A stretch of DNA of 64,000 bases from contig NZ_FOVR01000003.1 in the NCBI RefSeq assembly GCF_900115225.1, forward strand, positions 436,017 through 500,016. The letters are read 5' to 3'. Every line of letters begins with the position of its first letter. The first letter of the stretch is position 1. Below, piece after piece: positions 13,099 to 38,374 of the stretch. A model generated the notes under the pieces. It was not told the origin of the DNA. It did not search any database and saw nothing but the letters and a program-made list of their open reading frames with translations. The stretch comes from Cohaesibacter marisflavi. GTDB lineage: Bacteria; Pseudomonadota; Alphaproteobacteria; Rhizobiales; Cohaesibacteraceae. The position numbers were made by a program, and so were the translations under genes.

Positions 13099-13342
13099 AA
13101 CTCCAAGAGACAACGCACATTGTCTCAAGGCGTCAATCATCTCTGCGAGCAATTCGATAGGAGACGCAGCCTGAATGGCCACGCTCTTTGCTGCAGATGC
13201 GCCGAGAGGCGATCCCTTTATTAAACCAGCATACCATTCCAATTATTGATACAATATCATCATATTTAATCACTTATTCTCATTATTAACTCGTGCTATC
13301 ATGTCGAGAAATTTTAGACACAATGACACTGCTTGCAGATCG

Positions 13343-13352
13343 CCCCCCCCCC
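13343..13352 (+). repeat. Poly-C tract (10 C) at the start of the LysR gene
   Basis: Ten consecutive C lie between an upstream ATG (13323) and the LysR coding region. With nine C the ATG would be in frame with the regulator; with ten it runs into a TAG after 15 codons. Confidence 0.85.
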
Positions 13353-13383
13353 AAGCAGTCGACACGATAGGACATCGCACGCC

Positions 13384-14295
13384 TTGATTACCTTCAAGCA
13401 GCTGGAAGCAATCTATTGGATCGCTGAACTTGGAAGCTTTGCCGCTGCGGCGGACAAGTTGAACACCACGCAGTCTGCTGTCTCGAAACGGGTTCAGGAT
13501 TTCGAGCTGCTTTTCAATGTGGCGATTTTTGACCGGAGCAAGCGGTCTGCACGCCTCACCGAAAAGGGGGCCGAAGCGCTGGATTATGCCAGAGGGTTGC
13601 TGGAAGGGCGAGACACGTTCATAGAACGGATCAGCTCGCAGGATGTTCTCATCCGCCAATTTCGTCTTGGCGTAACCGAATTGACGGCAATGACCTGGTT
13701 GCCCAATCTGGTCAAGAGCATCAAGGCAGACTATTCCGGCATCAACATCGAGCCTGTTGTCGAATCCAGTTCAGCTCTGTTTGACAGACTTATGGAAGAC
13801 ACGATCGACATGATCGTCATTCCCGATGTCTTCAACGATTCCCGATGCGTTTCAGAGCCTCTGGGGCTGGTTGAAAATGCATGGATGTGCTCTCCCGATC
13901 TGGATGACTCCGACACCCCTCTCTCTTTGTCGGATCTGGCCAATTTCACGATGCTCGTCCAGGGCAACAAATCCGGAACCGGGCTTGTTTATGGCAGGTG
14001 GCTCTCAAGTCAGGGTATCACACCCTCCAAGACCATCAACTGCGAAAGCCTGTTGGCACAAATCGGCTTCACGATGTCCGGTCTGGGGGTGAGTTATCTA
14101 CCGATCGCTGCTGTGCGCTCTCTCATTCAGGCTGGAAGTCTGAGGCGCTTGGTCATGCAATCGCAGATGCCACATGTACGCTATGCCCTGCTCTATCGGC
14201 ATGACCGTCTGTCGCAATTCAAACTGCGAGTTGTGGAGTTGGCACAGGCCCATTGCGATTTCACTGTCTCGCCGATCTATGGCGCAACGATCTGA
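13384..14295 (+). CDS. LysR-family regulator, probably of the TRAP/pxp cluster
   Basis: 303 aa from the TTG at 13384. The frame is open upstream to 13333 and, if the poly-C tract were one base shorter, to an ATG at 13323. The winged helix-turn-helix begins right away (ITFKQLEAIYWIAELGSFAA... TTQSAVSKRVQDFE), followed by a LysR effector domain of normal length. It converges on the TRAP permease gene with a shared terminator at 14322-14355. Its likely target is the divergent promoter region 17281-17617, a common arrangement that remains inference here. Confidence 0.85.
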   Translation: MITFKQLEAIYWIAELGSFAAAADKLNTTQSAVSKRVQDFELLFNVAIFDRSKRSARLTEKGAEALDYARGLLEGRDTFIERISSQDVLIRQFRLGVTELTAMTWLPNLVKSIKADYSGINIEPVVESSSALFDRLMEDTIDMIVIPDVFNDSRCVSEPLGLVENAWMCSPDLDDSDTPLSLSDLANFTMLVQGNKSGTGLVYGRWLSSQGITPSKTINCESLLAQIGFTMSGLGVSYLPIAAVRSLIQAGSLRRLVMQSQMPHVRYALLYRHDRLSQFKLRVVELAQAHCDFTVSPIYGATI

Positions 14296-14392: not shown

Positions 14393-15697
14393 TCAGGCCA
14401 TCACCAGATTGGGCAGGAAGCTGATAATTTGCGGGAATAGGGCCAGCAGCAAAACAAAAGCCATCATGATCAGGAAGAATGGCAATGCCGCTTTCACCAC
14501 TTCACCAAGTGGCTTTTTGGTGATGCCTTGCAACACGAACAGGTTCATGCCTACAGGTGGAGAGATCTGGGCCAGTTCCACCATGATCACAAGGAAAATA
14601 CCAAACCAGATCTTGTCATAGCCTGCTGACTGCACCAGAGGGAGCACGATTGGAATGGTCATGACGATCATGGACATCCCTTCAAGGAAGGTTCCAAGGA
14701 TCATGTAGATGACGATCAGCAGCAGGATCAAGGCAAATGGAGCAAGATCCATCTGTGTCACGATACGTGAAATCGTGGTGGGAATCGCCAGAAAGCCCAT
14801 AGCTACAGAGAGGAAGGAAGCCGCTGCGACGATCAACCCCAACATGGAGACCGTGCGAGAGGTGCCAATTGCTGCATCCTTGAGGTTGGCAATGGTCAGG
14901 GAGCGCTCAAATGCCATGATAACGACGGTTGCTACCACAGCAAAAGCTGCCGCTTCTGTCGGGCTGGCAAGGCCGCCATACATGGAGCCAAGAACAGCCG
15001 CGATCAGCAAAAGAAAGGGCAACAACAGCGGAAGCTGCTTGAAACGCGCACGCCACAAGTCCGGCTTGCTCATTGGCTCAGCCTTGCCAACCATGCCCGG
15101 ATTCAACTTGGTGACGATTGCAACATAGCCCATGAACGCAACACAGAGAAAGATGCCGGGAATGATGCCTGCAGCAAACAGCTTGAGCACCGATGTGCGC
15201 GACAGCACGCCATAAATAATCATGACGATGGACGGCGGAATGAGAAATCCGAGCGTACCGGCTCCGGCCAGTGTGCCGATAGTCATGCGTTCATCATAAC
15301 CACGCTGGCGCAATTCGCCGACGGTGATCCGGCCGATGGAGCTGGTAGTGGCAGCAGAGGAGCCCGAAATCAGCGCAAACAGGGCACAGCCGATAATGTT
15401 GGTATGCAACAGGCCACCGGGCAGATTGCGCAACCAGGGTTCGAGAGCACCAAAAACGCCATCGATAAACTTGGAGCGATAGATTAGCTCGGCCATCAGA
15501 ATGAAGAGAGGCAGGGCCAGCAATTCAGCCGAGGACAGGCCGTTCCAGATGGATTGAGAAAAGAGCTTGTCAACGGGCACATTGCGGAAGACCTCAAGGC
15601 TAATCAGGCCGATTCCGGCAAGACCAAGGCCAATCCAGACGCCAGACCCCAGAATAACAACAAGCAGAACGAGAGGGAGAATAACAGAAGCGGGCAT
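14393..15697 (-). CDS. dctM: TRAP transporter large permease, DctM family
   Basis: 434 aa with about 12 membrane spans and typical DctM motifs (FILMAELIYRS, LISGSSAATTSSIGRITVGELRQRGY, GTLGFLIPPSIVMIIYGVLS). It couples Na+ or H+ flow to import of the acid captured by the binding protein. I chose the ATG at 15697, 7 bp after the small-permease stop and preceded by GAAGAG; the frame extends to 15772, but that part overlaps dctQ. Confidence 0.93.
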   Translation of the reverse strand: MPASVILPLVLLVVILGSGVWIGLGLAGIGLISLEVFRNVPVDKLFSQSIWNGLSSAELLALPLFILMAELIYRSKFIDGVFGALEPWLRNLPGGLLHTNIIGCALFALISGSSAATTSSIGRITVGELRQRGYDERMTIGTLAGAGTLGFLIPPSIVMIIYGVLSRTSVLKLFAAGIIPGIFLCVAFMGYVAIVTKLNPGMVGKAEPMSKPDLWRARFKQLPLLLPFLLLIAAVLGSMYGGLASPTEAAAFAVVATVVIMAFERSLTIANLKDAAIGTSRTVSMLGLIVAAASFLSVAMGFLAIPTTISRIVTQMDLAPFALILLLIVIYMILGTFLEGMSMIVMTIPIVLPLVQSAGYDKIWFGIFLVIMVELAQISPPVGMNLFVLQGITKKPLGEVVKAALPFFLIMMAFVLLLALFPQIISFLPNLVMA

Positions 15698-15704
15698 GGG
15701 CTCT

Positions 15705-16223
15705 TCAATCCATAATCGGGGCTGGGGCGTCTTCGCCTGTCGTATCAAGATCAGGCGCTTCGCCAAGGACAAGCCGCAGGGCGCGCAGGAGAATCTGCAG
15801 CGTCATCATGGAGGCTCCGAAGGCGATGATCGTGGCGGGGATTGCAAGCGGGGTATCAGTCACTGAACCGCTCGTCCGGCCGCTGGCATAATAGCTCCAT
15901 GCCAGTTTGATGAGAGCACTGCTCATATAGGCTGAGATGGCAAGGCCGAACAATGTTGCAACCCATTCCCCCAATCGCGGCAACTTGCCCAGCAACAGGG
16001 TAACGCGGATATGCCCTCCGGTGCGCAAGGTCCAGCCAGCGCCCAGAAAGACTGCCGCCATATGGGCAAAGACGCTCACTTCCCAGACATAGTGCAAGCT
16101 GATGTCTGCAAATTTACGCAGAAAGATTTCGGCAACGATCAGCAGGGCCATGCATCCGAGCATAATGCCGGACAAAAGCGAAAGCCCCATGGAAAACCGA
16201 TCTATGGCTCTCAAGATTTTCAC
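15705..16223 (-). CDS. dctQ: TRAP transporter small permease, DctQ family
   Basis: 172 aa, four membrane spans, with the DctQ motif region VWEVSVFAHMAAVFLGAGWTLRTGGHIRV. A GTG start at 16223 with GGGAG 6 nt upstream gives the usual DctQ length; the open frame runs to 16358 but would cross the hairpin at 16258-16289. It partners the DctM gene directly downstream. Confidence 0.88.
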   Translation of the reverse strand: MKILRAIDRFSMGLSLLSGIMLGCMALLIVAEIFLRKFADISLHYVWEVSVFAHMAAVFLGAGWTLRTGGHIRVTLLLGKLPRLGEWVATLFGLAISAYMSSALIKLAWSYYASGRTSGSVTDTPLAIPATIIAFGASMMTLQILLRALRLVLGEAPDLDTTGEDAPAPIMD

Positions 16224-16257
16224 AATGCTACTCCCGGTGTGAGAGTGTTTTATAAGG

Positions 16258-16289
16258 ATTGAGGCGAATGACAGAGCACTCGCCTCAAT
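16258..16289 (-). other. Intercistronic stem-loop after dctP
   Basis: A perfect 10-bp inverted repeat ATTGAGGCGA (16258-16267) / TCGCCTCAAT (16280-16289) lies between the dctP stop and the dctQ start, without a T run. It probably acts as a processing or stability element that favours dctP mRNA. Confidence 0.7.
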
Positions 16290-16314
16290 TGGCTGGTTTA
16301 TTGTTGCCGGGCTT

Positions 16315-17280
16315 TTATTTAGCTTTGAAACCTTCGACAACGTCCTTGGCTTTTGCACCCATCTTTTCGATTGCAGCGGCGCGCAGTGGTTCTGCCCGTT
16401 CGGTCAGGATTGCACGCAACTCATCAGAGATCGGAGCAAGGGTCATGCCCTGTTCTGCGAGGATTTTCATGTTTTTAGTGTCTTCATCCTGCGCAGACTG
16501 CCAAAGAGCTGGCTGCATTTCGTTTGCGATGGATGTCAGAGCCTTCTGGTCTTCATCGCTCAACCCGTTCCAGCTGTCCATGTTTACCGTCATGGCATTC
16601 ATGTTCCAGGTCTGGCGTGTCGGGAAGCCATAGTCCAGGAATTCCCAGAAGGAACCGTCTACAGCAGACGGAGACGAGGTTGCCACAGCGTTGATGGTGC
16701 CTGCTGCGAGAGACGGAATAACTTCCCCCCAAGGCAGCTGAACCGGAGTCATGTCAGCGGAGGCGAACACGTCGGTGGAAGAGCGGTCATAAGAGCGGAT
16801 CTTCATATCCTTGATGGATGCCAGATCGGTCACTTCGCTTTTGGTCCAGATCTGCTGCTGTGGCCAAGGAATGGTGTAGAGCAGTTTTTGGTTGTTTTTC
16901 GCAAAGATGTCTTCCAGGTCGGCGCGGAAATATTTCTCAAAAGCCTGCAATTCTTCAAACGAAGACAGGAAGTAAGGCAGAGACGTCAGGCCGAGCATTG
17001 GCTCATCACCGATCTGCTGGTTCATCAGCATGTCGCCGATCGGCACAAGGCCATCGCGCACAGCACCCAGCATTTCCGGGCCCTTGAAGCCAAGGGAGCC
17101 ACCGGTGTGCAAGGTGATGTCGACGCGCCCTTCGGTTTCTTCGCGAACGCGGTCTGCGAAGGACTGAGCGCCTACGCTGATATAGTTGTCGGCAGGCCAT
17201 GCCAGAGGCAGATCCCAATTGTCTGCCAGAGCGGGAGAAGTGGCCAGGAGCAAAAATGCCAAACTACTGCGGGTAATCAT
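16315..17280 (-). CDS. dctP: TRAP transporter substrate-binding protein, DctP family
   Basis: 321 aa with a Sec signal peptide (cleavage after SPALA near residue 19). The DctP fold is seen in VRDGLVPIGDMLMNQ and in the ligand-clamping arginine of DMKIRSYDRSS, which normally binds a carboxylate. The region usually reading RxPxN is SYDRSS here, so it belongs to a divergent DctP branch and the ligand may not be a C4-dicarboxylate. It is divergent from the aminotransferase-pxp operon, which suggests co-regulation and a ligand containing a carboxylate and a lactam or amino group. Confidence 0.92.
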   Translation of the reverse strand: MITRSSLAFLLLATSPALADNWDLPLAWPADNYISVGAQSFADRVREETEGRVDITLHTGGSLGFKGPEMLGAVRDGLVPIGDMLMNQQIGDEPMLGLTSLPYFLSSFEELQAFEKYFRADLEDIFAKNNQKLLYTIPWPQQQIWTKSEVTDLASIKDMKIRSYDRSSTDVFASADMTPVQLPWGEVIPSLAAGTINAVATSSPSAVDGSFWEFLDYGFPTRQTWNMNAMTVNMDSWNGLSDEDQKALTSIANEMQPALWQSAQDEDTKNMKILAEQGMTLAPISDELRAILTERAEPLRAAAIEKMGAKAKDVVEGFKAK

Positions 17281-17617
17281 AGGAGTGTCTCCTCAGGTGC
17301 TGGTGTTATTTTGACTTGATCACATACTTGCCACATTGAGCAACAAAAGAAAGCGAATTAAATTCGGCTCTTCTCATGAGAAAAAGGAATTGATAGTGAG
17401 AAAATTACTGATCTATCACTTTTCTACTGAAGCGAGAACAACAACGACATAGACAACGCAATCCATAAGTCTTTCCACATCCTACCTTTTTAAACAACAG
17501 ATCCGCAATTCTCCTATGCATTCCCAAAATTGATCCTTTCGAATAATTTTAATTCGCTTTTTTTGCTGAGACTTGCCGCCTACCTTCTTGGCAAATTTGT
17601 CTAAGAGGTCTAATCGC
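17281..17617. promoter_or_regulatory. Divergent control region between dctP and the aminotransferase operon
   Basis: No gene in 337 bp. It holds a perfect 12-bp palindrome TTCTCATGAGAA (17371-17382), a plausible LysR or other dimeric-regulator site, and AT-rich sequence between 17400 and 17560. AGAGG lies about 8 nt before the aminotransferase ATG. Confidence 0.45.
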
Positions 17618-18859
17618 ATGTCGATCACAATTTCGCAAAAAGTTCGCAAGCTGCGACCTTCCGCGAGCATTGCTGCCAAACAAAAAGTGGATGAGCTGCG
17701 CGCTCAGGGTGTCGAAATTCTGGACTTTTGCCTTGGCGAACCAGACTTTGACACGCCCGCACATATTATCGAAGCAGCTCATCAGTCGATGCTGTCTGGA
17801 GACACCCACTATACGGGGTCGCAAGGAACTCCGGCACTGCGGCAAGCTATTGCCGACAAGCTCAAGCGGGACAATGGTATCAACGTTCCGGCGAGCCAAA
17901 TTGTGGTGGCAAATGGCGCAAAACAGCTGATTTTCGACATTTTTTCTGCCACTCTTGATCCAGGCGACGAGGTGATTATCCCTGCGCCCTACTGGGTGAG
18001 CTATCCGGACATTGTTTCTCTTAACGGTGGTGAGCCGAAGATCGTCGCTTGTGGCCCGGAAACGGGTTTCAAGCTGACGCCGGATATGCTCGAGGGACTG
18101 ATTACCAGCCGCACCCGCTGGTTGATCATCAACTCGCCGTCAAACCCGACCGGTGCCGTTTATACCCGCGAGGAATGGCTCGACTTGATCGAGGTGCTCA
18201 AAAAGCATCCGCAGGTCGGCATAATGACTGACGAAATCTATGAGCATATCGCTTTCGAGGGCGTAAAAAACCATTCCCCGATGGCAGTTGATCCTTCGGT
18301 CGCTGACCGTTGCGTCATTGTGAATGGTATGTCCAAGGCCTATGCCATGACTGGATGGCGCATAGGCTACGCCGTCTGCCCGCCTGAACTGGTCAAGGCA
18401 GTCGTCAAGCTGCTTGGACAGAGCACCACTTGCGCTTGCTCCTTCTCTCAATCGGCAGCAACGGTCGCGCTAAACGCCGATCAATCCTGTGTTGACGATA
18501 TGGTGGTGCTCTATACAAAGCGACGCGCAGCCATTGTCGATGGCCTCAACGCAGTCCCCGGCATCCGCTGCAAGGCACCGGATGCAGCTTTCTATGTGTT
18601 CCCGGATGTTCGCGCCCTTCTGGGCAGCAAGACGGCTGCCGGAGAACGGATTGAAACAGATCTGGACCTGGTCAACTACCTTCTTGAAGAGGCCCATGTC
18701 GCCCTCATGGACGGCACATCCTATGGCCTTCCCGGCTTCCTGCGTCTCAGCTTCGCGGCCTCAGAAAAGGTCATCGCCGAGGGCATGACTGCCATTTCCA
18801 AGGCCGTGTCAAAACTACAGTTGGCTGACAACCCGACAAATCAGGAGGCGGCCCAATGA
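17618..18859 (+). CDS. Class I pyridoxal-phosphate aminotransferase (aspartate aminotransferase-like)
   Basis: 413 aa. PLP-binding features are visible: SPSNPTGAVY (N176), DEIYEH (D205, Y208) and the Schiff-base lysine K240 in GMSKAYAMTGWRIGY; the substrate-carboxylate Arg is in PGFLRLSF. It resembles the alphaproteobacterial I-gamma aspartate/glutamate aminotransferases. First gene of a five-gene operon that overlaps the RraA-like gene by 4 bp (ATGA). In this setting it probably removes the amino group from a glutamate analogue released by PxpABC, producing a 2-oxo acid for the RraA-like enzyme. A housekeeping aspartate transaminase is less likely given the operon. Confidence 0.9.
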   Translation: MSITISQKVRKLRPSASIAAKQKVDELRAQGVEILDFCLGEPDFDTPAHIIEAAHQSMLSGDTHYTGSQGTPALRQAIADKLKRDNGINVPASQIVVANGAKQLIFDIFSATLDPGDEVIIPAPYWVSYPDIVSLNGGEPKIVACGPETGFKLTPDMLEGLITSRTRWLIINSPSNPTGAVYTREEWLDLIEVLKKHPQVGIMTDEIYEHIAFEGVKNHSPMAVDPSVADRCVIVNGMSKAYAMTGWRIGYAVCPPELVKAVVKLLGQSTTCACSFSQSAATVALNADQSCVDDMVVLYTKRRAAIVDGLNAVPGIRCKAPDAAFYVFPDVRALLGSKTAAGERIETDLDLVNYLLEEAHVALMDGTSYGLPGFLRLSFAASEKVIAEGMTAISKAVSKLQLADNPTNQEAAQ

Positions 18860-19497
18860 CCGCGTTGAGCAAGACCAAAATGGTCCCGAGTGAAGACAAA
18901 CTGGATCACCTCATTGCCGAGTTTGCAACCTGTGCTGTCGCCAATGTCAGCGACAATCTGGACCGTCTGAGAGGCGCCAAGGGCATCAAGCCGTTCCATC
19001 GGGCTGGCGTCATGGTCGGCCGTGCGCTTACAATCAAGGTTGTGCCGGGCAGCAATGGCTTCATCCATCGAGCACTGGACATTGTAAAACCGGGCGAAAT
19101 TCTCGTTGTCGATGGTGGCGGCTATTGCGACCGGGCTCTCATCGGCGAAATCATGGTGGCCATTGCCAAGTCGCGTGGGGCTGCGGGCTATGTGATTGAT
19201 GGTGCGATCCGCGACATTGACAATATTTCGAGCAATGACTTTCCGGTGTTCGCGCGTGATTTTATCCATATGGGCCCCTACAAAGACGGTCCGGGAGCCA
19301 TCAACATTCCGGTCAGCATCGGCGGCATGATGGTGCATCCGGGTGATATCATCATGGGGGATGCCGATGGCGTCGTAGCCATTGCGCCGCAAGAAGCCGA
19401 AACCCTTCTGGCCAATACGCGCGCCCAGCAGAAAAAGGAGGAAGAAATTCTTGCTTCCGTGGCTGCAGGCACGTACACCGGAGCCTATGCAAAGTAG
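18856..19497 (+). CDS. RraA-family protein, probable 4-hydroxy-4-methyl-2-oxoglutarate (HMG) aldolase
   Basis: 213 aa. The RraA/HMG-aldolase fold is clear, with the metal/substrate pair Arg119-Asp120 in VIDGAIRDID and a GDADGVVAI C-terminal motif. Family members from Pseudomonas and Sphingomonas split 4-hydroxy-4-methyl-2-oxoglutarate or 4-carboxy-4-hydroxy-2-oxoadipate to pyruvate and also decarboxylate oxaloacetate. The RNase E inhibitor RraA itself is shorter (~160 aa) and would not sit in a catabolic operon, so the aldolase role is preferred. It is translationally coupled to the aminotransferase. Confidence 0.85.
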   Translation: MTALSKTKMVPSEDKLDHLIAEFATCAVANVSDNLDRLRGAKGIKPFHRAGVMVGRALTIKVVPGSNGFIHRALDIVKPGEILVVDGGGYCDRALIGEIMVAIAKSRGAAGYVIDGAIRDIDNISSNDFPVFARDFIHMGPYKDGPGAINIPVSIGGMMVHPGDIIMGDADGVVAIAPQEAETLLANTRAQQKKEEEILASVAAGTYTGAYAK

Positions 19498-19618
19498 GGA
19501 AAGTCACTAAGATTCCTTGGTAAAGCTCTCAATCAATGGGTTCCCCAATAGCGCGTTTGTGCCTGACAGACACGGGCACAGACGTCCAAGCCGAAAGCCA
19601 CCTTCTGTGAAAGAAACA

Positions 19619-20278
19619 ATGCCGTCCTCCGTATCCATAAGCATCTCCCATATGGGGGCCACCGCTTTGCTGGTGCAGTCAGGCGGCCCTCTTTCGGTTG
19701 ATGTACAAAGCCGCTATTGGGCGTATGATCAAGCCTGCAAAGCGCTTGAAGGCGTGGTTGAGACCGTATTGGGCATGCATTCCCTTCTGGTCTATCTGAC
19801 ACCCGACTGCGACCCGATGCGCATGAAGGTTGAGCTTGAACAGCTTTGGCAGCGGACAAAGCCGCGCCAGATCGAAGGGCGCCTTGTCGAAATCCCGGTT
19901 ATCTATGGCGGTGAGACGGGCATGGATCTGAGCGAACTGGCAGACTCTTGCAGCCTCAGTGTTGATGAGGTCGTCGCCCTACACTCGGAACCGGACTATG
20001 TCGCCTTTGCCCTCGGTAGCCAGCCCGGATTTGCCTATCTTGGTGGCATGAATTCGAGATTAACCACGCCTCGCCGTGCCCAGCCCCGTTTGAGTGTGCA
20101 AGAAGGCAGTGTGGTGATCGGGGGCGCTCAGGCCGGCGTCATCGCCAAGACATCTCCTTCCGGATGGCATGTTATCGGCAAGACGGAGCTTTCCTTCTTT
20201 GACGAAACCAAACAGAGCCCTTCCCTCATCATGCCCGGGGACAGGATCCGGTTCGTTGTTCAGGAGTTGATAGCATGA
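19619..20278 (+). CDS. pxpB: 5-oxoprolinase subunit PxpB (KipI-like)
   Basis: 219 aa from the ATG at 19619; the frame is open to 19517, but that extension has no family resemblance. KipI/PxpB motifs include the PVIYGGETGMDL segment and ALGSQPGFAYLGGM. Together with PxpC and PxpA it forms the ATP-dependent prokaryotic 5-oxoprolinase that opens the pyroglutamate lactam ring. It overlaps pxpC by 4 bp (ATGA). Confidence 0.93.
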   Translation: MPSSVSISISHMGATALLVQSGGPLSVDVQSRYWAYDQACKALEGVVETVLGMHSLLVYLTPDCDPMRMKVELEQLWQRTKPRQIEGRLVEIPVIYGGETGMDLSELADSCSLSVDEVVALHSEPDYVAFALGSQPGFAYLGGMNSRLTTPRRAQPRLSVQEGSVVIGGAQAGVIAKTSPSGWHVIGKTELSFFDETKQSPSLIMPGDRIRFVVQELIA

Positions 20279-21243
20279 TCGAGATCTCTGCGCCGGGTCT
20301 GCTGGCAACCATACAGGATCTCGGACGCCCCGGCTTCGGATCACTCGGTGTTGGCCGCAGCGGTGCGATGGATGCATTGGCGTTGCGTATTGCCAACGCC
20401 ATGTTGAGCAACGAAGAAACCGCCGCAGGCATAGAGATCACCTTGGGTGGATTTGAATGTCGCATTCTGGAACCGGTTGACATCTGCCTAGCCGGAGCCG
20501 ACTGCAAGGCCATGCTGGATGGCAAGCCGTTGCCGCGCTGGTGGGTGCAAAGCCTGCGCCCCGGCCAGACCCTCAAGATGGGCTTCTGCACCAGTGGCAT
20601 GCGCAGCTATCTGGCTGTGCGGGGCGGGTTGAATGTTCCTGAAATCCTAGGTTCACGCGCAACTGATATGAAAGGCGGCTTTGGCGGTCTTGAGGGGCGA
20701 GCCCTGCAAAGGGGAGACCGCCTCGCAGCGCTCCACAAGGCCACTCTTTCGCCTCCCCTTGCCTTTGGCTTGAGCCCGACTATCTGGCAATCCTTGTTTG
20801 AAAGCACGGCTATTCCTCAGCCCCTACACTTCATTCCGGCAGCAGAATGGGGAGATTATGACCGGGAAAACCAGACGCTGTTTACAGAGCAGGCCTGGCA
20901 GATTTCACAGGACAGCAACCGCATTGGCTATCGGCTCGAAGGGGAAGAAATCATCCCCATGGAGCGCAAGGAATTGTTGTCACACGGTATCTTGCCCGGC
21001 ACCATTCAGCTTCCTTCTTCCGGCAAGCCTGTCATTCAGCTGGCTGATGCCAATACAGCGGGTGGATACCCCAAACTGGGTGTCGTGATTGAAGCAGACC
21101 TGCCACTTCTGGCACAGGCAAGGCTTGGCAGCACAGTGCGCTTTGTGCCTTGCGCTTTGGAGGAAGCAAAGGCGGCAACCGAAAAGCAAAATCGGATGCT
21201 GGATGAAATCAGGACCTGCGCAGCATTCCATTTGGCGCCCTAA
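20275..21243 (+). CDS. pxpC: 5-oxoprolinase subunit PxpC (KipA-like)
   Basis: 322 aa of the biotin-dependent-carboxylase-like AHS2 domain family. The typical start IQDLGRPGFGSLGVGRSGAM and the SHGILPGTIQLPSSGKP motif near residue 235 are present. Partner of PxpB. It is followed by a hairpin (21264-21305) and a 135-bp gap before pxpA. Confidence 0.93.
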   Translation: MIEISAPGLLATIQDLGRPGFGSLGVGRSGAMDALALRIANAMLSNEETAAGIEITLGGFECRILEPVDICLAGADCKAMLDGKPLPRWWVQSLRPGQTLKMGFCTSGMRSYLAVRGGLNVPEILGSRATDMKGGFGGLEGRALQRGDRLAALHKATLSPPLAFGLSPTIWQSLFESTAIPQPLHFIPAAEWGDYDRENQTLFTEQAWQISQDSNRIGYRLEGEEIIPMERKELLSHGILPGTIQLPSSGKPVIQLADANTAGGYPKLGVVIEADLPLLAQARLGSTVRFVPCALEEAKAATEKQNRMLDEIRTCAAFHLAP

Positions 21244-21263
21244 CCAACGGGCTCTTTGTCTTC

Positions 21264-21305
21264 AAGAGTGGCTTGTGCAGCTTTGGTCGGTTCTGCACCA
21301 CTCTT
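21264..21305 (+). other. Hairpin between pxpC and pxpA
   Basis: AAGAGTG...GTGCAG (21264-21280, with a 4-nt bulge) pairs with CTGCACCACTCTT (21293-21305) around a 12-nt loop and is followed by only a short T run. It could be a partial terminator or processing site inside the operon. Confidence 0.5.
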
Positions 21306-21378
21306 TACTACCATATAGACCAGCCCCGGGTATCTGGAATAAACAAACAACACCCCGCCTTCACTAGGGAGAGTTCTG

Positions 21379-22140
21379 ATGAAAAGCATTGATGTCAATT
21401 CCGATCTTGGTGAAGGATTCGGTCCTTACCGTATTGCGCCAGATGCCGATCTGATGCCGTTGATCACATCGGCCAATATTGCCTGCGGTGCCCACGCTGG
21501 CGATCCCCTGATCATGGATGAAACCGTTTCCCTTGCGCAAACAAACAAGGTGCGGGTCGGGGCTCATATTGGCTATCCAGATCGAGAGAATTTCGGCCGC
21601 CGGATGATGACAATGACGCTCAAAGAACTTGAGTTGATGACCGTCACCCAGCTTGGTGCACTTGCAGCCATTGCCGCACACCGCGGTGCACAGCTCACCC
21701 ATGCCAATTTCCATGGGGCACTGGGGAACTTGTCCTTTGCGGACGCCGATGTTGCGCGGACACTCATCAAGGCCATGAAGTCCTTCGATCCCTCCCTCAA
21801 ATTTATCGGGCTGGGCGACACCGAGGCCTCTCGCATAGCCGAGGAAGAGGGAATAGAGGTTGTCTACTCCTTCCTGGCTGATCGGGGTTATTCTGCTCCG
21901 GGCCGTCTGGCACCGCGTGGCACAGCTGGTGCATTGCTGCATGAGCCTGAAGATATCCGCCTCAGAGTTGCCGAAACCCTGTCATCAGGCAAGCTGAAGC
22001 TCACGACGGGGGAAGTCATTCCTGTCAAGATCGATTCCATTCTGGTCCATAGCGATACGCCCAATGCCCTGAAACTGGCCCATGCCATTCGTCAGGGTAT
22101 CGCAGATGCCGCCTTCGAAATCGCCTCCTACGCGATCTGA
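21379..22140 (+). CDS. pxpA: 5-oxoprolinase subunit PxpA (LamB/YcsF family)
   Basis: 253 aa. Family hallmarks are the N-terminal DVNSDLGEGFG, the ANIACGAHAGDP loop and the C-terminal ILVHSDTPNA. The fold is a deacetylase-like TIM barrel that works with PxpBC. AGGGAGAG lies about 10 nt before the ATG. Last intact gene of the operon; the 22141-22257 tail holds a decayed copy of unrelated coding sequence. Confidence 0.93.
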   Translation: MKSIDVNSDLGEGFGPYRIAPDADLMPLITSANIACGAHAGDPLIMDETVSLAQTNKVRVGAHIGYPDRENFGRRMMTMTLKELELMTVTQLGALAAIAAHRGAQLTHANFHGALGNLSFADADVARTLIKAMKSFDPSLKFIGLGDTEASRIAEEEGIEVVYSFLADRGYSAPGRLAPRGTAGALLHEPEDIRLRVAETLSSGKLKLTTGEVIPVKIDSILVHSDTPNALKLAHAIRQGIADAAFEIASYAI

Positions 22141-22257: not shown

Positions 22258-23304
22258 TTACAGATCGGAGGCCTGCATTCGCGCTTTGGCTGTTGAGGCG
22301 CGCAAAACCACTTGCGAAGGCAAGACAAGCCGCTTTTGCGGTATCGTCTCACCCTTCAACCGTTTGACCATAAGGTCCGCTGCAAGCCGGCCCTGATGGT
22401 CCGCATTCATTTTTACGGTCGTCAAGGGGGGCGAGATGAAGCCCGAGAAGGGCAGATCATCATAGCCAACAACGGATACATCGCCGGGCACCGACAACCC
22501 AAGGCTATTGAGCGCCCCGATCACGCCCAGCGCGATGGTGTCATTGCCTGCAAATATGGCCGTCAATCGTGGCTGCCGCTTCATCAGGCGCAGGGTTGCG
22601 TTATAGCCGCTCTCTGCACTGAAATCGCCGAACTCGATGCAATCGGCGTCGAGCATTATCCCGCTTTTTAAAAGCTCTTGGCGCAGCTCCTCCAAACGGG
22701 AATCGGTCGCGGAAAAGCCCGAGGGCGAAAAGGGAACGCTGCCGATATTCCGGTGTCCCAAATCCACGATATGGCGCACTGCCTCCGTTGTGCTGTCACT
22801 GGTGCAGGTCGTCACACTCAGCTCTTCCGGATGTCCGATCGAGCCGATCTGCACAACGGGAAAGCCGCTATCCAGCAAGGCATGAAGATCCTTGTCTTCG
22901 ACATGAGGGCTGAGCACCATCAGCCCGTCTATGCGATGGGAAAAGACCAGATCCGTATAGGGATTGACGCCCTTCTTCCGTTCGAAGGTCTCCAATAGCA
23001 GGCTGTAACCCGCCTCTTTCAGAACATCGGCAATCGCGTAATGCAATATGGGGATATAGGCATCCACACGGATGGAGCGCGTTTCCGTGATCACCAGTCC
23101 GATCGTATCCGTTCGCCCCTTGCGCAGCATGAGCGCCGCAGAATTGGGACGATAGCCCAGAATGCGCGCTGCTTCACGCACGCGCTCCTTGGTTTCTTCG
23201 CTGAGACTGACGGCATTTGAACCGTTCAGAACCAGAGACACGGTCGAACGGGAAACGCCGGCCAGTTTGGCCACATCATGGCTGGTGACAGATTTTGCTT
23301 TCAT
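22258..23304 (-). CDS. LacI-family repressor of the alpha-galactoside operon
   Basis: 348 aa. The helix-turn-helix is at the N-terminus (TSHDVAKLAGVSRSTVSLVL), followed by a sugar-binding effector domain ending in SVVGYDDLPFSGFISPPLTT. It is divergent from the CUT1 transporter/alpha-galactosidase operon, and two matching palindromes lie in the 147-bp intergenic space, so it should repress both directions and respond to an alpha-galactoside or its breakdown product. Confidence 0.92.
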   Translation of the reverse strand: MKAKSVTSHDVAKLAGVSRSTVSLVLNGSNAVSLSEETKERVREAARILGYRPNSAALMLRKGRTDTIGLVITETRSIRVDAYIPILHYAIADVLKEAGYSLLLETFERKKGVNPYTDLVFSHRIDGLMVLSPHVEDKDLHALLDSGFPVVQIGSIGHPEELSVTTCTSDSTTEAVRHIVDLGHRNIGSVPFSPSGFSATDSRLEELRQELLKSGIMLDADCIEFGDFSAESGYNATLRLMKRQPRLTAIFAGNDTIALGVIGALNSLGLSVPGDVSVVGYDDLPFSGFISPPLTTVKMNADHQGRLAADLMVKRLKGETIPQKRLVLPSQVVLRASTAKARMQASDL

Positions 23305-23320
23305 TCCAACTGGATACCAT

Positions 23321-23336
23321 ACTAACGCGTGTTAGT
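23321..23336. promoter_or_regulatory. LacI operator 1
   Basis: ACTAACGCGTGTTAGT, a 16-bp palindrome with one mismatch, 16 bp upstream of the lacI start codon. Its centre is 54 bp from operator 2, about five helical turns, suitable for DNA looping. Confidence 0.85.
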
Positions 23337-23349
23337 CGAACTTTTTTCA

Positions 23350-23390
23350 TTGACAGATGCAAATTCAAAACTACACTAACACGTGTTAGT
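23350..23390 (+). promoter_or_regulatory. Promoter with LacI operator 2 for the alpha-galactoside operon
   Basis: TTGACA (23350-23355), 16-bp spacer, TACACT (23372-23377). The perfect 16-bp palindrome ACTAACACGTGTTAGT (23375-23390) overlaps the -10 box and start site, as for a blocking operator. Confidence 0.85.
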
Positions 23391-23451
23391 ATGGCTTGGC
23401 TGGGGATAGAGGAACCCTACAATCCAGCTCAGCATTCAAGATGGGAGGAGC

Positions 23452-24390
23452 ATGATGACCCGACGAAGTACCGATAAAACGGTCAACGCGGACAAAGAAT
23501 CAGGTCTGTTTGGAAACAGGCTGCGCAGGAAGGAAGCCCTGACGGGCTATCTTTTCATTTTGCCAGCCCTTATCGGCCTGATTGCCTTTTTTGCTTTTCC
23601 TACCATCCGGGCCGCGCAAATCAGTCTGACCAACTGGAACCTGATGCGCCCGGCGCACTGGATCGGGTTTGATAACTACGGCAAACTCTGGGCCGATGGG
23701 AAATTCTGGGACTCCATGCAGATCACGTTGCTCTATGTGATCTACAATATCCCCTTGCAAACAGCGCTTGGCCTGATCATTGCCGTGCTCGCAGACAGGC
23801 TTGCCAAGTCGGTTCTGTTCCGGGCCGTGATCATAGCGCCCTATCTCATTTCCAACGTGGTGGCCGGTCTTGTCTGGCTGCTCATGCTGGACCCGCTAAT
23901 CGGCCTGACCAACACTTTTCTTACCGGCATCGGCATCCCACCACAATCCTTTCTCAGTTCACCCGATCAGGCGCTCATTTCTGTCGCCGGCATCTCGATC
24001 TGGCGCCATGTGGGCTTCACTGCCCTGCTCTTCTATGCCGGTCTTCAGTCAATCCCACGCGATCTCTATGAAGCGGCGCGGCTGGATGGTGCCAGCGAAA
24101 GTGCCATGTTCCGCATGATCACGCTGCCGCTGTTGCGCCCCGTCATGGTGTTTGTGCTGGTGACCAGCGTGGTCGGGTCTTTCCAGGTGTTCGATGTGAT
24201 CGCCGTGACCACGCAAGGGGGGCCTGCCAACTCCACCCGCGCCGTGCTCTGGTACATCTATGAGAATGCCTTCCAGTTCAGCCGCATGGGCTATGCCTCA
24301 GCCATGTCCATGGTGCTGTTTGTCTTCCTCATTTTGGTAACGCTGTTGCAGATGCGCCTGCTGCATGCTGACCGTTCGGATCTGGGATAG
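23452..24390 (+). CDS. CUT1 ABC transporter permease, MalF-like (alpha-galactoside)
   Basis: 312 aa, six membrane spans after a short polar N-terminus; EAA loop YEAARLDGASESAMFRMITL. The ATG at 23452 follows GGGAGGAG closely; the next codon is also ATG. It is the first gene of the operon ending in a GH36 alpha-galactosidase. Confidence 0.93.
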   Translation: MMTRRSTDKTVNADKESGLFGNRLRRKEALTGYLFILPALIGLIAFFAFPTIRAAQISLTNWNLMRPAHWIGFDNYGKLWADGKFWDSMQITLLYVIYNIPLQTALGLIIAVLADRLAKSVLFRAVIIAPYLISNVVAGLVWLLMLDPLIGLTNTFLTGIGIPPQSFLSSPDQALISVAGISIWRHVGFTALLFYAGLQSIPRDLYEAARLDGASESAMFRMITLPLLRPVMVFVLVTSVVGSFQVFDVIAVTTQGGPANSTRAVLWYIYENAFQFSRMGYASAMSMVLFVFLILVTLLQMRLLHADRSDLG

Positions 24391-24401
24391 GGAGAAGCCT
24401 C

Positions 24402-25277
24402 ATGTCAAAGAAACTCAACCTGCCCAAATTGTTCGGCTATGCGGGCCTTGCCATTTTCTGCATCATCTCACTGTTGCCCATCTGGATGGCGCTCAAAACA
24501 GCGATCACCATGCCCTCAGATGTCTTTTCCACGGCGAATAGTCTATGGGTCAACAATCCGGTCTTCGGCAATTTCCTGCGCGTTTTGGGCCTGCCCAGTG
24601 ATGTACCGCCGCCTGCCAACTCAGGATCGCCAATCAACTTCATGATCGCCCTTCGAAACAGCGTGGTCTATACCGGCCTTCTTGTCACCGGTCAGCTCTT
24701 CTTTTCGTCACTGGCCGCCTATGCCTTTGCACGTCTGCGCTTTCCCGGACGGGATGCGCTCTTCTACAGTTTCATCGCGGCGACGATGATCCCTTCGATC
24801 GTGCTGTTCATTCCCAATTTCATCCTGATCCGCCAGTTGGGCCTGCTCAACAGCTTTGCGGGCATGGTGGCTCCCAACATCCTGATGCTGCCTTTCGCAG
24901 TCTTTTTCCTGCGTCAGTTCTTCCTTTCAACCCCCAAGGAGCTGGAAGAAGCAGCGCGGCTGGATGGCCTGAGCTGGTTCAAGGTCTATTGGCATATCGC
25001 CCTGCCGCTACAGCGCGGACCGCTGGCCACACTGGCCATCCTGCTTTCCATTCAGGCCTGGAATGACTTCTTCTGGCCGTTCCTCGTGGGCCAGAAAGAA
25101 AATGTACAGGTGATGGCCGTTGCCCTCGCCAACTATCAAAGCCAGACCGGACAAGGTCAGCCGGATTGGACCGGCCTGATGGCCGCCGTGATGCTATCGA
25201 TCATTCCGGTGCTGATCCTGCTCGTTTTCTTTGGTCGCCGTATCGTGGAATCCTTGCAAACAAGCGGCATGAAATAG
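24402..25277 (+). CDS. CUT1 ABC transporter permease, MalG-like (alpha-galactoside)
   Basis: 291 aa, six membrane spans, EAA loop EEAARLDGLSWFKVYWHIAL. A GGGAGAAG ribosome site lies in the 11-bp gap after the first permease. It pairs with that permease to form the channel. Confidence 0.93.
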   Translation: MSKKLNLPKLFGYAGLAIFCIISLLPIWMALKTAITMPSDVFSTANSLWVNNPVFGNFLRVLGLPSDVPPPANSGSPINFMIALRNSVVYTGLLVTGQLFFSSLAAYAFARLRFPGRDALFYSFIAATMIPSIVLFIPNFILIRQLGLLNSFAGMVAPNILMLPFAVFFLRQFFLSTPKELEEAARLDGLSWFKVYWHIALPLQRGPLATLAILLSIQAWNDFFWPFLVGQKENVQVMAVALANYQSQTGQGQPDWTGLMAAVMLSIIPVLILLVFFGRRIVESLQTSGMK

Positions 25278-25310
25278 GCCGATATTCGAATTTTCTAGGG
25301 AGAGAGAATT

Positions 25311-26612
25311 ATGAAGAACCTAACGAACTATCTTCTTGTGTCCGCAGCCATTCTGGCTCCGACAACCGTTTTTGCGCAAGACACCGTGCGCTACTGGATG
25401 TGGGATGGGCAACAGGCACCTGTCTATCAGCAGTGCGCGAATGACTTCGAGGCACTGAACAGCGACATCCATATCGAGATCACGCAAACGGGCTGGGATC
25501 AATATTGGACGAACCTGACGACCAGCTTCATTTCCGGTGATGCCCCTGACGTTTTCGTCAATCACCTGATGCGCCTGCCAGAATTTGCCGCCAACCAGAT
25601 GATCGAGGATCTCACTCCGCTTCTTGCTGACGCCTCCTATGATACATCGGGCTATCTGCCGGGCTTGCTGGAGAACTGGTCCAAGGATGGCGCAATCTAC
25701 GGTCTTCCCAAAGACTGGGCAACCGTCGCTGTCGCCTATGACCGGGACAAATTGAAGGCTGCCGGTCTTCAGCCATCTGATCTGGCTGACATGAACTGGA
25801 ACCCAGAAGATGGGGGCAGCTTCCAGAAGATCATCGCACATCTCACCGTCGACACCAACGGCAAGCGCGGAGATGAAGAGGGCTTTGACCCCAATTCCAT
25901 TGCCACCTTTGGCCTCGTTCTCAACCCGCTCAGCCCGCAAGGGGAAACCGAATGGGCCTATCTGGCAGCCAGCACGGGCTGGAGATTCATCGATGAGCCA
26001 TGGTCGACCCACTATAATTTCGATGATCCCCGCCTCGCCAAAACCCTGACATGGATTAGGGATCTTGCTCGCGTTCACCACCTGATGCCGACAGTGGAGC
26101 AGACGGGACGCCTGGGGGCAGAAACGCTGATGTTCTCCGACAAGGGAGCCATGACAGTGACCGGTTCGTGGCTTGTGGGCCTCTACCACCAGTCAAAGCC
26201 ATCGGTTGCCTTTGCCCCCATTCCTGCCGGGCCACAAGGGCGCAAAACCATGTTCAACGGGCTGGCGGATTCCATCTGGACGGGCAGCCCAGTCAAGGAT
26301 GCCGCATGGAAGTGGGTGCAATATCTCGGCTCTGATGCGTGTCAGACAACCGTTGCCAAAGCGGGCGTGGTCTTCCCTGCCCAGCAGGACCAGATAGAGA
26401 CTACCGTCAAGGCCTTCGAGGACAAGGGCGTCGATGTCTCTGCCTTCACCAAGGTTGCCACTGAAGAGACCACGTTTGCTCCGCCGATTACCGACTATGG
26501 CAACGAGATTTCCTCCATCGTGAAAGCAGCCCTCGAAAGTGTCATGCTGGGGCGGGAAAATCCCGAAGAAATCCTTACCGATGCCAATGAAGAGATTAAC
26601 AGCCTTTTCTGA
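25311..26612 (+). CDS. CUT1 ABC transporter substrate-binding protein (alpha-galactoside)
   Basis: 433 aa with a Sec signal peptide (cleavage after TTVFA near residue 22) and a MalE-type fold (RYWMWDGQQAPVYQQC start). GGGAGAGAG precedes the ATG. Unlike the first CUT1 operon, the binding protein is the third gene. It probably captures melibiose, raffinose or similar, as judged from the downstream alpha-galactosidase. Two stem-loops follow before the ATPase gene. Confidence 0.93.
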   Translation: MKNLTNYLLVSAAILAPTTVFAQDTVRYWMWDGQQAPVYQQCANDFEALNSDIHIEITQTGWDQYWTNLTTSFISGDAPDVFVNHLMRLPEFAANQMIEDLTPLLADASYDTSGYLPGLLENWSKDGAIYGLPKDWATVAVAYDRDKLKAAGLQPSDLADMNWNPEDGGSFQKIIAHLTVDTNGKRGDEEGFDPNSIATFGLVLNPLSPQGETEWAYLAASTGWRFIDEPWSTHYNFDDPRLAKTLTWIRDLARVHHLMPTVEQTGRLGAETLMFSDKGAMTVTGSWLVGLYHQSKPSVAFAPIPAGPQGRKTMFNGLADSIWTGSPVKDAAWKWVQYLGSDACQTTVAKAGVVFPAQQDQIETTVKAFEDKGVDVSAFTKVATEETTFAPPITDYGNEISSIVKAALESVMLGRENPEEILTDANEEINSLF

Positions 26613-26645
26613 TCGTTCGATCTTTGCAGGGAGCAGCATCGTCTG

Positions 26646-26691
26646 GGGGCGGCGCTGCGCCCCATCGCGGCCGGATAGCCTTCTGTCCGGC
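26646..26691 (+). other. Two intercistronic stem-loops after the binding-protein gene
   Basis: GGGGCG/CGCCCC (26646-26663, 6-nt loop) and GCCGGA/TCCGGC (26670-26691, 10-nt loop) lie in the 148-bp gap between binding protein and ATPase, without T runs. Confidence 0.6.
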
Positions 26692-26760
26692 GGCACCCAG
26701 CCCCATTATTTCAGCCGGAGCCCGAAGTGCAATCCGGTCAGGCCAACCCGGGAGGAGAGC

Positions 26761-27843: not shown

Positions 27844-27898
27844 CTGCCAACACGCCCTGACAACCCGATACTCAAGAGCAACCAAAGCGGACTGATCC

Positions 27899-37909: not shown

Positions 37910-38112
37910 AACATGGCCATTTTCAAGGAATGGAGGGAAGAAAATTCACGCAGATCCCAAAGTGGACCAAAGCCTTTGGCCACGGGGTGGTGCGAGCGCA
38001 CAGCAAGCAGTCCTTGGCAGCAAGCAAGCCAAAAACGACACCAGTTTGAAAAAAGGAATACAAAAAAGACCTTCCTTCTGGAGCACCCCGCCCAGATCTG
38101 AATGAGTGGCAT

Positions 38113-38292
38113 GTCGGCAGGTCTCCTGGCTCACAGGTCAATATGCTTTTCTACCTTCCCGGCTCAAACCAGTGGCAAAAGAGAAAAGCATTCTCTGTTT
38201 ACAGTTGCGGGGGCAGCTCCGGATTCACGACAAGACACACGTCTTGCCACGCACCGGATTCCCTTTTCATTCCTTTTGGAAACCGACACCCA
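38113..38292 (-). ncRNA. Cobalamin (B12) riboswitch
   Basis: Read on the minus strand, the aptamer landmarks occur in order: GGGAATCCGGTGCG, GAATCCGGAGCTGCCCCCGC with AACTGT, GCCACTGG and the 3' box GAGCCAGGAGACCTGCC. This is the classic B12-element. It precedes the btuF-like gene by about 200 nt, in which no clean intrinsic terminator is seen, so control may act on translation. High adenosylcobalamin should shut off the importer. Confidence 0.95.
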
Positions 38293-38315
38293 ATTTCTGT
38301 TGCAATTGCCTTGAC

Positions 38316-38329
38316 CTGTCAATTGACAG
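38316..38329. promoter_or_regulatory. 14-bp palindrome upstream of the riboswitch
   Basis: CTGTCAATTGACAG is a perfect palindrome; the minus strand reads TTGACA here, a possible -35 box, but no convincing -10 follows. Confidence 0.35.
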
Positions 38330-38374
38330 ATCAGCGCAGTCTCTCCTCACCGCACAAGCCATCAATAATAAAGG

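Follow-up and report, generated by a model that had tools for sequence, protein, structure and literature searches.

A LysR-linked gene cluster of Cohaesibacter marisflavi that may degrade lactams of 4-hydroxylated glutamates

Gene content of the locus

The stretch of Cohaesibacter marisflavi DNA analyzed here (64 kb, referred to as the window) carries a TRAP importer that is transcribed divergently from genes for an aminotransferase (AT), an RraA-like protein and PxpB, PxpC and PxpA. All eight genes named in an earlier note on this DNA were found, in the order that it had given. The features are:

13333–14295, plus strand: LysR-type regulator (Pfam HTH_1 and LysR_substrate)
14393–15703, minus strand: DctM, large TRAP permease (PF06808; TIGR00786 above cut-off)
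15705–16328, minus strand: DctQ, small TRAP permease (PF04290; no match in the NCBIfam scan)
16315–17280, minus strand: DctP, solute-binding protein of the pyroglutamate-binding kind (PF03480; sequence and Foldseek matches)
17281–17617, no strand: divergent intergenic region with candidate operators
17618–18859, plus strand: class I/II AT, aspartate-transaminase-like (PF00155; K240)
18856–19497, plus strand: RraA-like protein, proposed class II pyruvate aldolase (PF03737; NF004850 above cut-off)
19517–20278, plus strand: PxpB (PF02682; TIGR00370 above cut-off)
20275–21243, plus strand: PxpC (PF02626; TIGR00724 above cut-off)
21379–22140, plus strand: PxpA (PF03746; subfamily models NF003814 and NF003816 above cut-off)

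The gene overlaps reported previously are 4 bp long and lie at the AT/RraA and PxpB/PxpC junctions, and the highlighted residues, K240 of the AT and R119-D120 of the RraA-like protein, occupy the positions claimed. For PxpB, an ATG at 19619 suits the homologues of about 224 residues better than the start at 19517. A recent foreign origin of the cluster was rejected on compositional grounds, its G+C content (54.5%) being near that of the window (54.0%).

We count the LysR gene as a cluster member and probable regulator, because it accompanies the cluster in genomes G239 and G635 and because LysR genes 36–44% identical to it adjoin AT-RraA pairs in G632, G633, Hoeflea, Microvirga and Haematobacter. 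The divergent intergenic region contains a facing pair of motifs, GCGAATTAAA (17353–17362, plus strand) and TTTAATTCGC (17548–17557), which are candidate operators. They are the sole two exact copies within the window; both recur in G239 and G634, and one in G635. Across four genomes, the two ends of the region are conserved and its middle is variable. A longer version of the pattern, searched with two mismatches allowed, was not more frequent than expected by chance.

Conservation in the genus and a second, diverged kit

The window arrangement occurs in four of 18 genomes of the genus. Gene set and order are kept in three further species, with 84–99% identity to the window proteins for DctP, AT, RraA and PxpA, and 70–97% for PxpB and PxpC. 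A second, diverged kit is present in six of the 18 genomes, including that of C. marisflavi itself; compared to the window, its DctP is 41%, its AT 48%, its RraA 34% and its PxpA 49% identical. Overall, the TRAP, AT, RraA and Pxp parts of the two arrangements share only 34–51% identity. The association is more than chance, because set and order persist in three further species and a differently arranged version of the kit exists; with one kit or the other in at least nine of the 18 genomes, chance adjacency was rejected. The earlier note had listed lack of conservation among the results that would refute its proposal; the neighbourhood is conserved within the genus, in two arrangements. Genes in the relatives' loci were named by their BLAST matches to window proteins and to those of C21, L008, L019 and L021; in the high-GC relatives the reading frames were called mechanically and include spurious antisense frames.

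Biotin carboxylase (BC) is frequent in the second kit, where separate BC and BCCP genes adjoin PxpBCA, and G629 retains a biotin carboxylase remnant. The presence of this enzyme, which also passes the BC models of acetyl-CoA carboxylase, suggests a urea-carboxylase-like lactam opening. The window cluster encodes, side by side, the three subunits of a putative PxpABC 5-oxoprolinase, of which PxpB passes TIGR00370. PxpC passes TIGR00724, scores 319 in the PxpC equivalog NF045499 (cut-off 500) and reaches 175 bits, far under the cut-off, in the urea carboxylase model TIGR02712. PxpA passes NF003814 and NF003816 and stays below three PxpA equivalogs.

The AT-RraA and TRAP-Pxp parts occur apart

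In G632 and G633 (17.5 and 3.2 kb read, respectively), LysR, AT and RraA stand together without Pxp or TRAP genes, and G197 has an AT-RraA pair of 42% and 34% identity. Moreover, in Hoeflea olei, Microvirga lupini, Haematobacter massiliensis, G207 and G600 the AT-RraA pair is accompanied by an ABC importer for polar amino acids, and tblastn detected no Pxp in these five cases. In Haematobacter, the pair is followed by a gene for a Glu/Leu/Phe/Val dehydrogenase, which could regenerate the 2-oxoglutarate acceptor. Given that the pair occurs with an ABC importer where Pxp was undetected, AT and aldolase form a separable module, which supports the logic of the earlier note. TRAP and Pxp look like the lactam entry to this module.

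TRAP and Pxp genes are likewise found without RraA. The C28 locus of C. marisflavi combines a TRAP importer and PxpABC with GntR regulators and peptidases, and is a better candidate for plain 5-oxoproline use than the window cluster. G375 has a TRAP-AT-BCCP-BC-PxpBCA locus resembling the second kit; it lacks RraA and, according to a family scan, carries a gene of the PEP-mutase/isocitrate-lyase superfamily behind LysR. This superfamily includes pyruvate-forming C-C lyases.

At the order level, 16 of the 20 RraA neighbourhoods that were read were free of Pxp and AT (one 27%-identical AT being left uncounted). A class-level RraA survey of 385 genomes yielded 14 places outside the own genome, all of them read, of which one (G600) was AT-linked and none Pxp-linked, the neighbourhoods in G477 and G451 ending at contig ends. 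The association is therefore not general for the RraA family. The corresponding PxpC survey gave 18 places, two of which outside the own genome (G375 and G587) were read.

The solute-binding protein and the two enzymes

DctP has its best sequence matches and its lowest-E Foldseek matches (ranks 1–3 by E-value) in 6wgm, 2pfy and 2pfz, whose titles name bound pyroglutamate or pyroglutamic acid, that is, the unsubstituted compound. It is 24–30% identical to these proteins, the marine 6wgm and Bordetella DctP7 (2pfy) and DctP6 (2pfz), and R162 is invariant in nine of nine aligned sequences. With these nearest relatives and the selectivity arginine, its sequence places DctP in the pyroglutamate-binding subfamily, whereas by TM-score other TRAP receptors are equally close or closer (4n4u and 2cey, 0.82 each, vs 0.75–0.77). 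The same kind of DctP (45–46%) adjoins Pxp without RraA elsewhere in the genome and is thus not a marker of the RraA kit.

In the RraA-like protein, N67, H71, R119, D120, K143 and E195 align to N71, H75, R123, D124, K147 and E199 of the Pseudomonas putida HMG/CHA aldolase (3noj), which are catalytic or pocket residues there. Other positions differ: the residue at 102 (D in 3noj) corresponds to E98, T145 to P141 and R195 to Q191; R40 is not kept, and D70 is replaced by S66 in the four window-type proteins only. In the second-kit protein, H71 is a glutamine. The window protein falls below both CHA-aldolase equivalogs (NF006731, the CHA aldolase/oxaloacetate decarboxylase model, 133.8 vs 179; TIGR02798, the stricter LigK model, 118.9 vs 304.5), and the second-kit protein passes the former (229.5) and fails the latter (209.1). 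The earlier assignment as HMG-type aldolase thus stands in part, backed by the retained key residues and by the second kit passing NF006731, but not by the window protein's own equivalog scores. In the RraA tree, a supported group (96/94) comprises 14 rows, four linked to AT and Pxp, five to AT, three to Pxp and two others.

The nearest relatives of the window AT are aspartate transaminases. It scores 525.9 bits, below the cut-off of 617, in the aspartate transaminase model NF004769 (PRK06107), which the second-kit AT passes with 655.3 bits. K102 is a candidate for the lysine contacting the distal carboxylate, which we presume by analogy to the thermophilic AspAT.

A possible route for 4-hydroxylated pyroglutamates

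What we infer from these genes is each individual reaction, the sequence in which the reactions follow one another and the kind of substrate. By a narrow margin, we favour the view that the cluster is under LysR control and serves to degrade the lactam of a glutamate that is hydroxylated at position 4 and probably carries a further substituent there. DctPQM would import the lactam, a substituted pyroglutamate, and PxpABC would use ATP to open the ring, giving the free amino acid, which the AT would convert to a 4-hydroxy-2-oxo-dicarboxylate. The RraA-type enzyme would then split this product in a retro-aldol reaction into pyruvate and a second 2-oxo acid, which should be pyruvate, glyoxylate or oxaloacetate if the 4-substituent is methyl, hydrogen or carboxymethyl, respectively. 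The specific substrate 4-hydroxy-4-methyl-5-oxoproline, the lactam of transaminated parapyruvate, is one guess among the 4-hydroxylated pyroglutamates and a long shot. The gene combination looks like a catabolic route so far undescribed.

A broader reading, doubtful when taken as a whole, sees in these loci a family of modular gene sets for the breakdown of 4-hydroxylated pyroglutamates and similar acids, with the second kit encoding a biotin-dependent lactamase. Entry would be provided by TRAP and Pxp, by TRAP and HyuAB, or by an amino-acid ABC importer. The 2-oxo acid would be formed by an AT or, in relatives, by oxidation via a 2-hydroxyacid or FMN dehydrogenase. An RraA-type retro-aldolase would be the usual end, replaced in G375 perhaps by a PEP-mutase/isocitrate-lyase-type lyase. 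In the second kit, BC, the carrier and PxpBC would carboxylate the lactam nitrogen, much as urea carboxylase acts on urea, and PxpA would then hydrolyze it.

Plain 5-oxoproline assimilation is a serious though rather unlikely competitor. Here, DctPQM would take up 5-oxoproline, PxpABC would yield glutamate and the AT 2-oxoglutarate with oxaloacetate as acceptor, the RraA-like protein being only an oxaloacetate decarboxylase or a side activity that keeps oxaloacetate and pyruvate in balance. The unsubstituted ligand of the nearest receptor structures and the aspartate transaminase family of the AT fit this scheme, as do the TRAP-Pxp loci without RraA in G375 and at C28. Oxaloacetate decarboxylation is known for HMG/CHA aldolases, according to an excerpt of PMC5065237, and the equivalog passed by the second-kit RraA bears both activities in its name. 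However, such decarboxylation would remove the acceptor of the AT, AT-RraA pairs exist where no Pxp was detected, and the host already owns a TRAP-PxpABC locus without RraA. Moreover, the Corynebacterium glutamicum system is described, in the excerpted account, as pxpTABC plus PxpR, without AT or RraA partners (PMC13274462).

The aspartate-like AT and the decarboxylase activity in the RraA family would also suit an aspartate-type route from amino acid via oxaloacetate to pyruvate and CO2, with TRAP and Pxp representing loosely co-regulated scavenging of acidic amino acids; the ABC importers and amino-acid dehydrogenase of other species point the same way. We consider this quite improbable, as a five-membered pyroglutamate-type lactam opens to glutamate rather than aspartate, and all four functions co-occur in two deeply diverged clusters of different order. 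Finally, we count among the rejected readings, as very improbable, that the RraA-like protein is no aldolase but, for example, a regulator like Escherichia coli RraA. The family name and several solved relatives titled regulators of ribonuclease activity speak for it, but the RraA equivalogs stay under cut-off (NF006875, 85 vs 136; TIGR02998, 56.4 vs 241) and the key aldolase residues are retained.

If the favoured route for 4-hydroxylated pyroglutamates is correct, bacteria would possess a dedicated pathway that takes lactams of branched, hydroxylated glutamates down to pyruvate. RraA-like aldolases would gain a metabolic role beyond aromatic catabolism, and so would a subset of the pyroglutamate-type TRAP receptors and the additional copies of PxpABC. 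Parapyruvate (HMG) arises chemically from pyruvate, including in bacterial cultures (PMC11951559, in excerpt), so that scavenging of the compound formed from it by transamination and cyclisation is conceivable. The variant with biotin carboxylase offers a testable link between 5-oxoprolinase and urea carboxylase.

Comparison with known systems

The C. glutamicum pxpTABC/pxpR system likewise unites PxpA, PxpB and PxpC with a dedicated importer and a regulator; as far as the excerpt of PMC13274462 goes, the window differs in having TRAP instead of PxpT, LysR instead of GntR, and an additional AT and RraA-type aldolase. Set against this system, the window PxpC also falls under the PxpC equivalog cut-off. 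Window DctP shares best matches, lowest-E structures and selectivity arginine with the known pyroglutamate-binding subfamily and differs in having Pxp, AT and RraA genes as neighbours; for B. pertussis, a 5-oxoprolinase of the eukaryotic type is reported in the vicinity (PMC13274462, same excerpt). The RraA-like protein has its family and six key residues in common with the P. putida HMG/CHA aldolase (3noj; PMC5065237, in excerpt). Unlike in protocatechuate/gallate 4,5-cleavage, we propose that transamination supplies its 2-oxo acid, and there is no aromatic-pathway gene among those annotated here. One part of urea carboxylase is homologous to PxpC, and the caprolactamase CapAB opens its lactam in an ATP-driven reaction that requires bicarbonate (PMC8453981, in excerpt). 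Compared to both, the second kit is predicted to encode BC and BCCP as separate proteins, with their genes beside PxpBCA.

Organization of the cluster and candidate pathway

All eight genes that an earlier note had assembled into a pathway of lactam import, Pxp ring opening, transamination and RraA retro-aldol cleavage are present, each with a Pfam match and all except DctQ with an NCBIfam match. A LysR gene outside the range of that note, matched in both databases, accompanies them:

13333-14295, LysR regulator
17280 down to 14393, leftward, TRAP transporter genes DctP, DctQ and DctM
17618-22140, rightward, aminotransferase (AT), RraA-like protein, PxpB, PxpC and PxpA

The AT and RraA genes overlap by 4 bp, as do PxpB and PxpC, and both K240 as the PLP lysine of AT and R119-D120 of RraA were confirmed. 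The divergent intergenic region, both ends of which are kept across four genomes, contains GCGAATTAAA twice in facing orientation, at 17353 and 17548, and these are the sole two exact copies in the 64 kb. Because a degenerate version of this motif is not above chance, the pair is only suggested as a candidate operator. Directly downstream of the cluster lies an ordinary sugar locus (22258-29971: LacI regulator, sugar-type ABC transporter genes, GH36 melibiase-family gene); FecCD-type ABC uptake genes and FeoB, for iron uptake, occupy 34951-41271.

In the candidate pathway, Pxp, which is expected to open five-membered lactams and should accordingly yield a glutamate, would act first; AT would transaminate this amino acid to a 4-hydroxy-2-oxo acid, on which RraA would act as a class II pyruvate aldolase.

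Conservation within the genus

Searching 18 genus genomes with the window RraA (E up to 1e-20) gave matches in 17, and reading of the neighbourhoods located window-type clusters in four: the window's own genome, G239, G635 and G634, where the contig ends before the LysR position. A diverged second kit lies on contig C21 of the own genome, in the order HADH - AT - DctM - DctQ - DctP - SDR, divergent from LysR - RraA - BCCP - BC - PxpB - PxpC - BCCP-like - PxpA (BC, biotin carboxylase; BCCP, its carrier). Identity to the window counterparts is 34-51% for its TRAP, AT, RraA and Pxp proteins and only 23% for its LysR. Twelve further RraA neighbourhoods were read for this kit and five were positive, which places it in six of the 18 genomes (own, G629, G219, G175, G638, G084); among the other seven, G197 has an AT (42%)-RraA (34%) pair beside a TctA-type transporter. 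Neighbourhood conservation, which the earlier note had set as a test, was borne out, with TRAP, AT, RraA and PxpBCA together in at least nine of the 18 genus genomes.

In the G629 kit, BC is down to an 81-residue remnant and the gene of the first carrier has decayed, and in the G084 kit the first carrier is a remnant and BC was not found; both keep TRAP, AT, RraA and Pxp. Neither BC nor BCCP was detected by tblastn in the window-type clusters (window 8001-30000 and loci L052, L095 and L096). G632 (17.5 kb read) and G633 (a 3.2-kb contig) carry LysR-AT-RraA only, tblastn detecting neither Pxp nor TRAP in these stretches.

Partial combinations outside the genus

Hoeflea olei and Microvirga lupini combine LysR, AT (54 and 52%) and RraA (60 and 63%) with a polar amino-acid ABC importer. 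Plasmid pOT1-2 of Haematobacter massiliensis has LysR, AT, RraA, a Glu/Leu/Phe/Val dehydrogenase and an amino-acid ABC importer, whose solute-binding protein (SBP) has glutamine-type SBPs among its best solved matches, and G207 and G600 group LysR, RraA, AT and an ABC importer. No Pxp was detected by tblastn at any of these five loci. As AT and RraA thus travel together without Pxp, the two probably share as substrate an amino acid whose transamination product can be taken up by a class II pyruvate aldolase. The reverse pairing also occurs: RraA stands with PxpB/PxpC, BC, BCCP, PxpA, SDR and a branched-chain-type ABC importer in Mesorhizobium sp. AR02, with PxpB, PxpC, PxpA, BC and BCCP in G105, and with PxpB and PxpC in G087, and tblastn detected no AT at these three loci.

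RraA further accompanies HyuA/HyuB, another type of ATP-dependent lactamase. In Nitratireductor aquimarinus, both occur with dehydrogenases and a related TRAP importer, and Bradyrhizobium plasmids from peanut (L076, L077) carry a HyuA-HyuB-DUF4286-MFS-RraA-cupin-hydrolase cluster. Peanut contains 4-methyleneglutamine and HMG-type acids (HMG, 4-hydroxy-4-methyl-2-oxoglutarate), so that a plant-derived substrate is thinkable here. The plasmid survey comprised eight regions read among 102 records with an RraA match; those of Bosea, P. syringae, Azospirillum and R. leguminosarum show LysR-RraA with other partners.

The order-level survey gave 48 places beyond the own genome, and the neighbourhoods of 20 were read: one held the full kit, two RraA with Pxp, one AT, RraA and ABC genes, and 16 none of these, not counting a single AT of 27% identity among the 16. 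At class level, AT, RraA and ABC genes occurred in one of 14 places (G600) and Pxp in none. These counts weigh against a general RraA-AT-Pxp association.

G375 has a cluster like the second kit (LysR, SDR, TRAP, AT, BCCP, BC, PxpB, PxpC, PxpA), and RraA is absent across its whole 15.7-kb contig. Behind LysR (L116; contig C39, 2049-2912) lies a gene of the PEP-mutase/isocitrate-lyase superfamily, with methylisocitrate lyase as best NCBIfam match, far below cut-off. Since this superfamily includes pyruvate-forming C-C lyases and oxaloacetate decarboxylases, the gene may be a non-homologous stand-in for RraA, a guess from one genome.

Biotin-linked Pxp and phylogeny

PxpB, PxpC and PxpA adjoin BC at L009/L100 (C21), L073, L053, L083 and L084, with a biotin carrier at all of these except L084, where none was detected; C21 adds a second carrier-like domain lacking the biotin-lysine motif. 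Such Pxp could possibly open lactams in a biotin-dependent, urea-carboxylase-like manner. In trees of 12-13 rows, some on long branches, the PxpB of the window falls into one group (98/97) with its counterparts from four biotin-linked loci (C21, G375, G105, Mesorhizobium) and from G087, where no BC was seen; the E. coli and L008 proteins stand apart, and biotin-linked G587 falls outside on a very long branch. The window PxpA joins the C21 and G375 copies (99/99), apart from biotin-linked G105 and Mesorhizobium, and the PxpC tree gives no resolution on this grouping. From the PxpB and PxpA groupings, the window Pxp may descend from biotin-linked stock.

In a tree of 52 RraA proteins, chosen by likeness to the window RraA and labelled by hand from the stretches read, a supported group (96/94) of 14 unites all four AT- and Pxp-linked rows, all from one genus, with five of seven AT-linked rows, three of four Pxp-linked rows and two others. 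The fourth Pxp-linked row, very distant, is the RraA of C21; the AT that goes with it is on the next stretch.

Substrate of the cluster

The host has five PxpA and three PxpB genes. Its third TRAP+PxpABC locus, on contig C28 (L008/L115, about 65.8-76.9 kb), comprises PxpA, PxpB, PxpC, two peptidase-like genes, GntR regulators and an L-PSP family protein. Its class I/II and class III aminotransferases belong to subfamilies other than that of the window AT, which shares 23% identity with the class I/II enzyme, and no RraA was detected by tblastn in the DNA read. The C28 locus looks like a plain 5-oxoproline locus, and this cuts both ways. Taken as such, it would leave the host no need of the window cluster for plain 5-oxoproline. 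Its TRAP importer, about 5 kb from PxpC, is of the same kind as the kit importers (DctP 45-46%, DctM 54-56%), so this kind of DctP is not special to RraA kits. Near two further PxpA genes (L006, L007; 16 kb read), neither PxpB nor PxpC was detected. The host also has five RraA-like genes, two of which (L101 on C19, L102 on C28) have a 2-hydroxyacid dehydrogenase and TctA-type transporters, not Pxp, as neighbours.

Assimilation of plain 5-oxoproline by the window cluster would account for TRAP and Pxp but demands a side role for RraA, and we regard it as rather unlikely. A lactam of a 4-hydroxylated glutamate would explain all parts, and we lean slightly towards it as the imported substrate. 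The 4-hydroxy-4-methyl form favoured earlier is sensible but unproven: parapyruvate (HMG) is described, in the accessible part of one report, as arising chemically from pyruvate and occurring in bacterial cultures (PMC11951559), which makes its transaminated lactam a sensible candidate. In the second kit, the best match of the 2-hydroxyacid dehydrogenase is glyoxylate reductase, far below cut-off, and such an enzyme would fit a product like glyoxylate equally well.

Comparison with known systems

Searches of open-access literature, outside which most subscription papers lie, turned up no description of the joint cluster; each of its enzyme families is already known. For the window DctP model (pLDDT 75.7; residues 61-76 and 80-94 below 50), the three lowest-E Foldseek matches are 2pfy, 6wgm and 2pfz, whose titles state binding of pyroglutamic acid or specificity for pyroglutamate; some other TRAP receptors come closer when judged by TM-score.

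The C21 RraA matches the P. putida HMG/CHA aldolase structure 3noj (E 7e-53) and passes the cut-off of NF006731 (CHA aldolase/oxaloacetate decarboxylase; 229.5 vs 179), staying below that of TIGR02798 LigK (209.1 vs 304.5). HMG/CHA aldolases also decarboxylate oxaloacetate, so sequence does not tell aldolase from decarboxylase use. Relative to the P. putida enzyme, the window RraA has P141 for T145, Q191 for R195 and S66 for D70, the serine occurring only in window-type proteins, and R40 is not kept. D102, presumably with a role in the enzyme, corresponds to E98, and 50 of 52 rows have one of these two acidic residues (E or D) there. In the accessible part of the work on the P. putida aldolase (PMC5065237), activity depends critically on R123, kcat drops more than 1000-fold with either N71A or K147A, the metal is bound by D124 and E199, and H75A has a small effect. 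By phmmer alignment to 3noj, H75 corresponds to H71 of the window RraA, which is not invariant when the window protein is aligned with 12 relatives, whereas the counterparts of N71, R123, D124, K147 and E199, namely N67, R119, D120, K143 and E195, are invariant in all 13.
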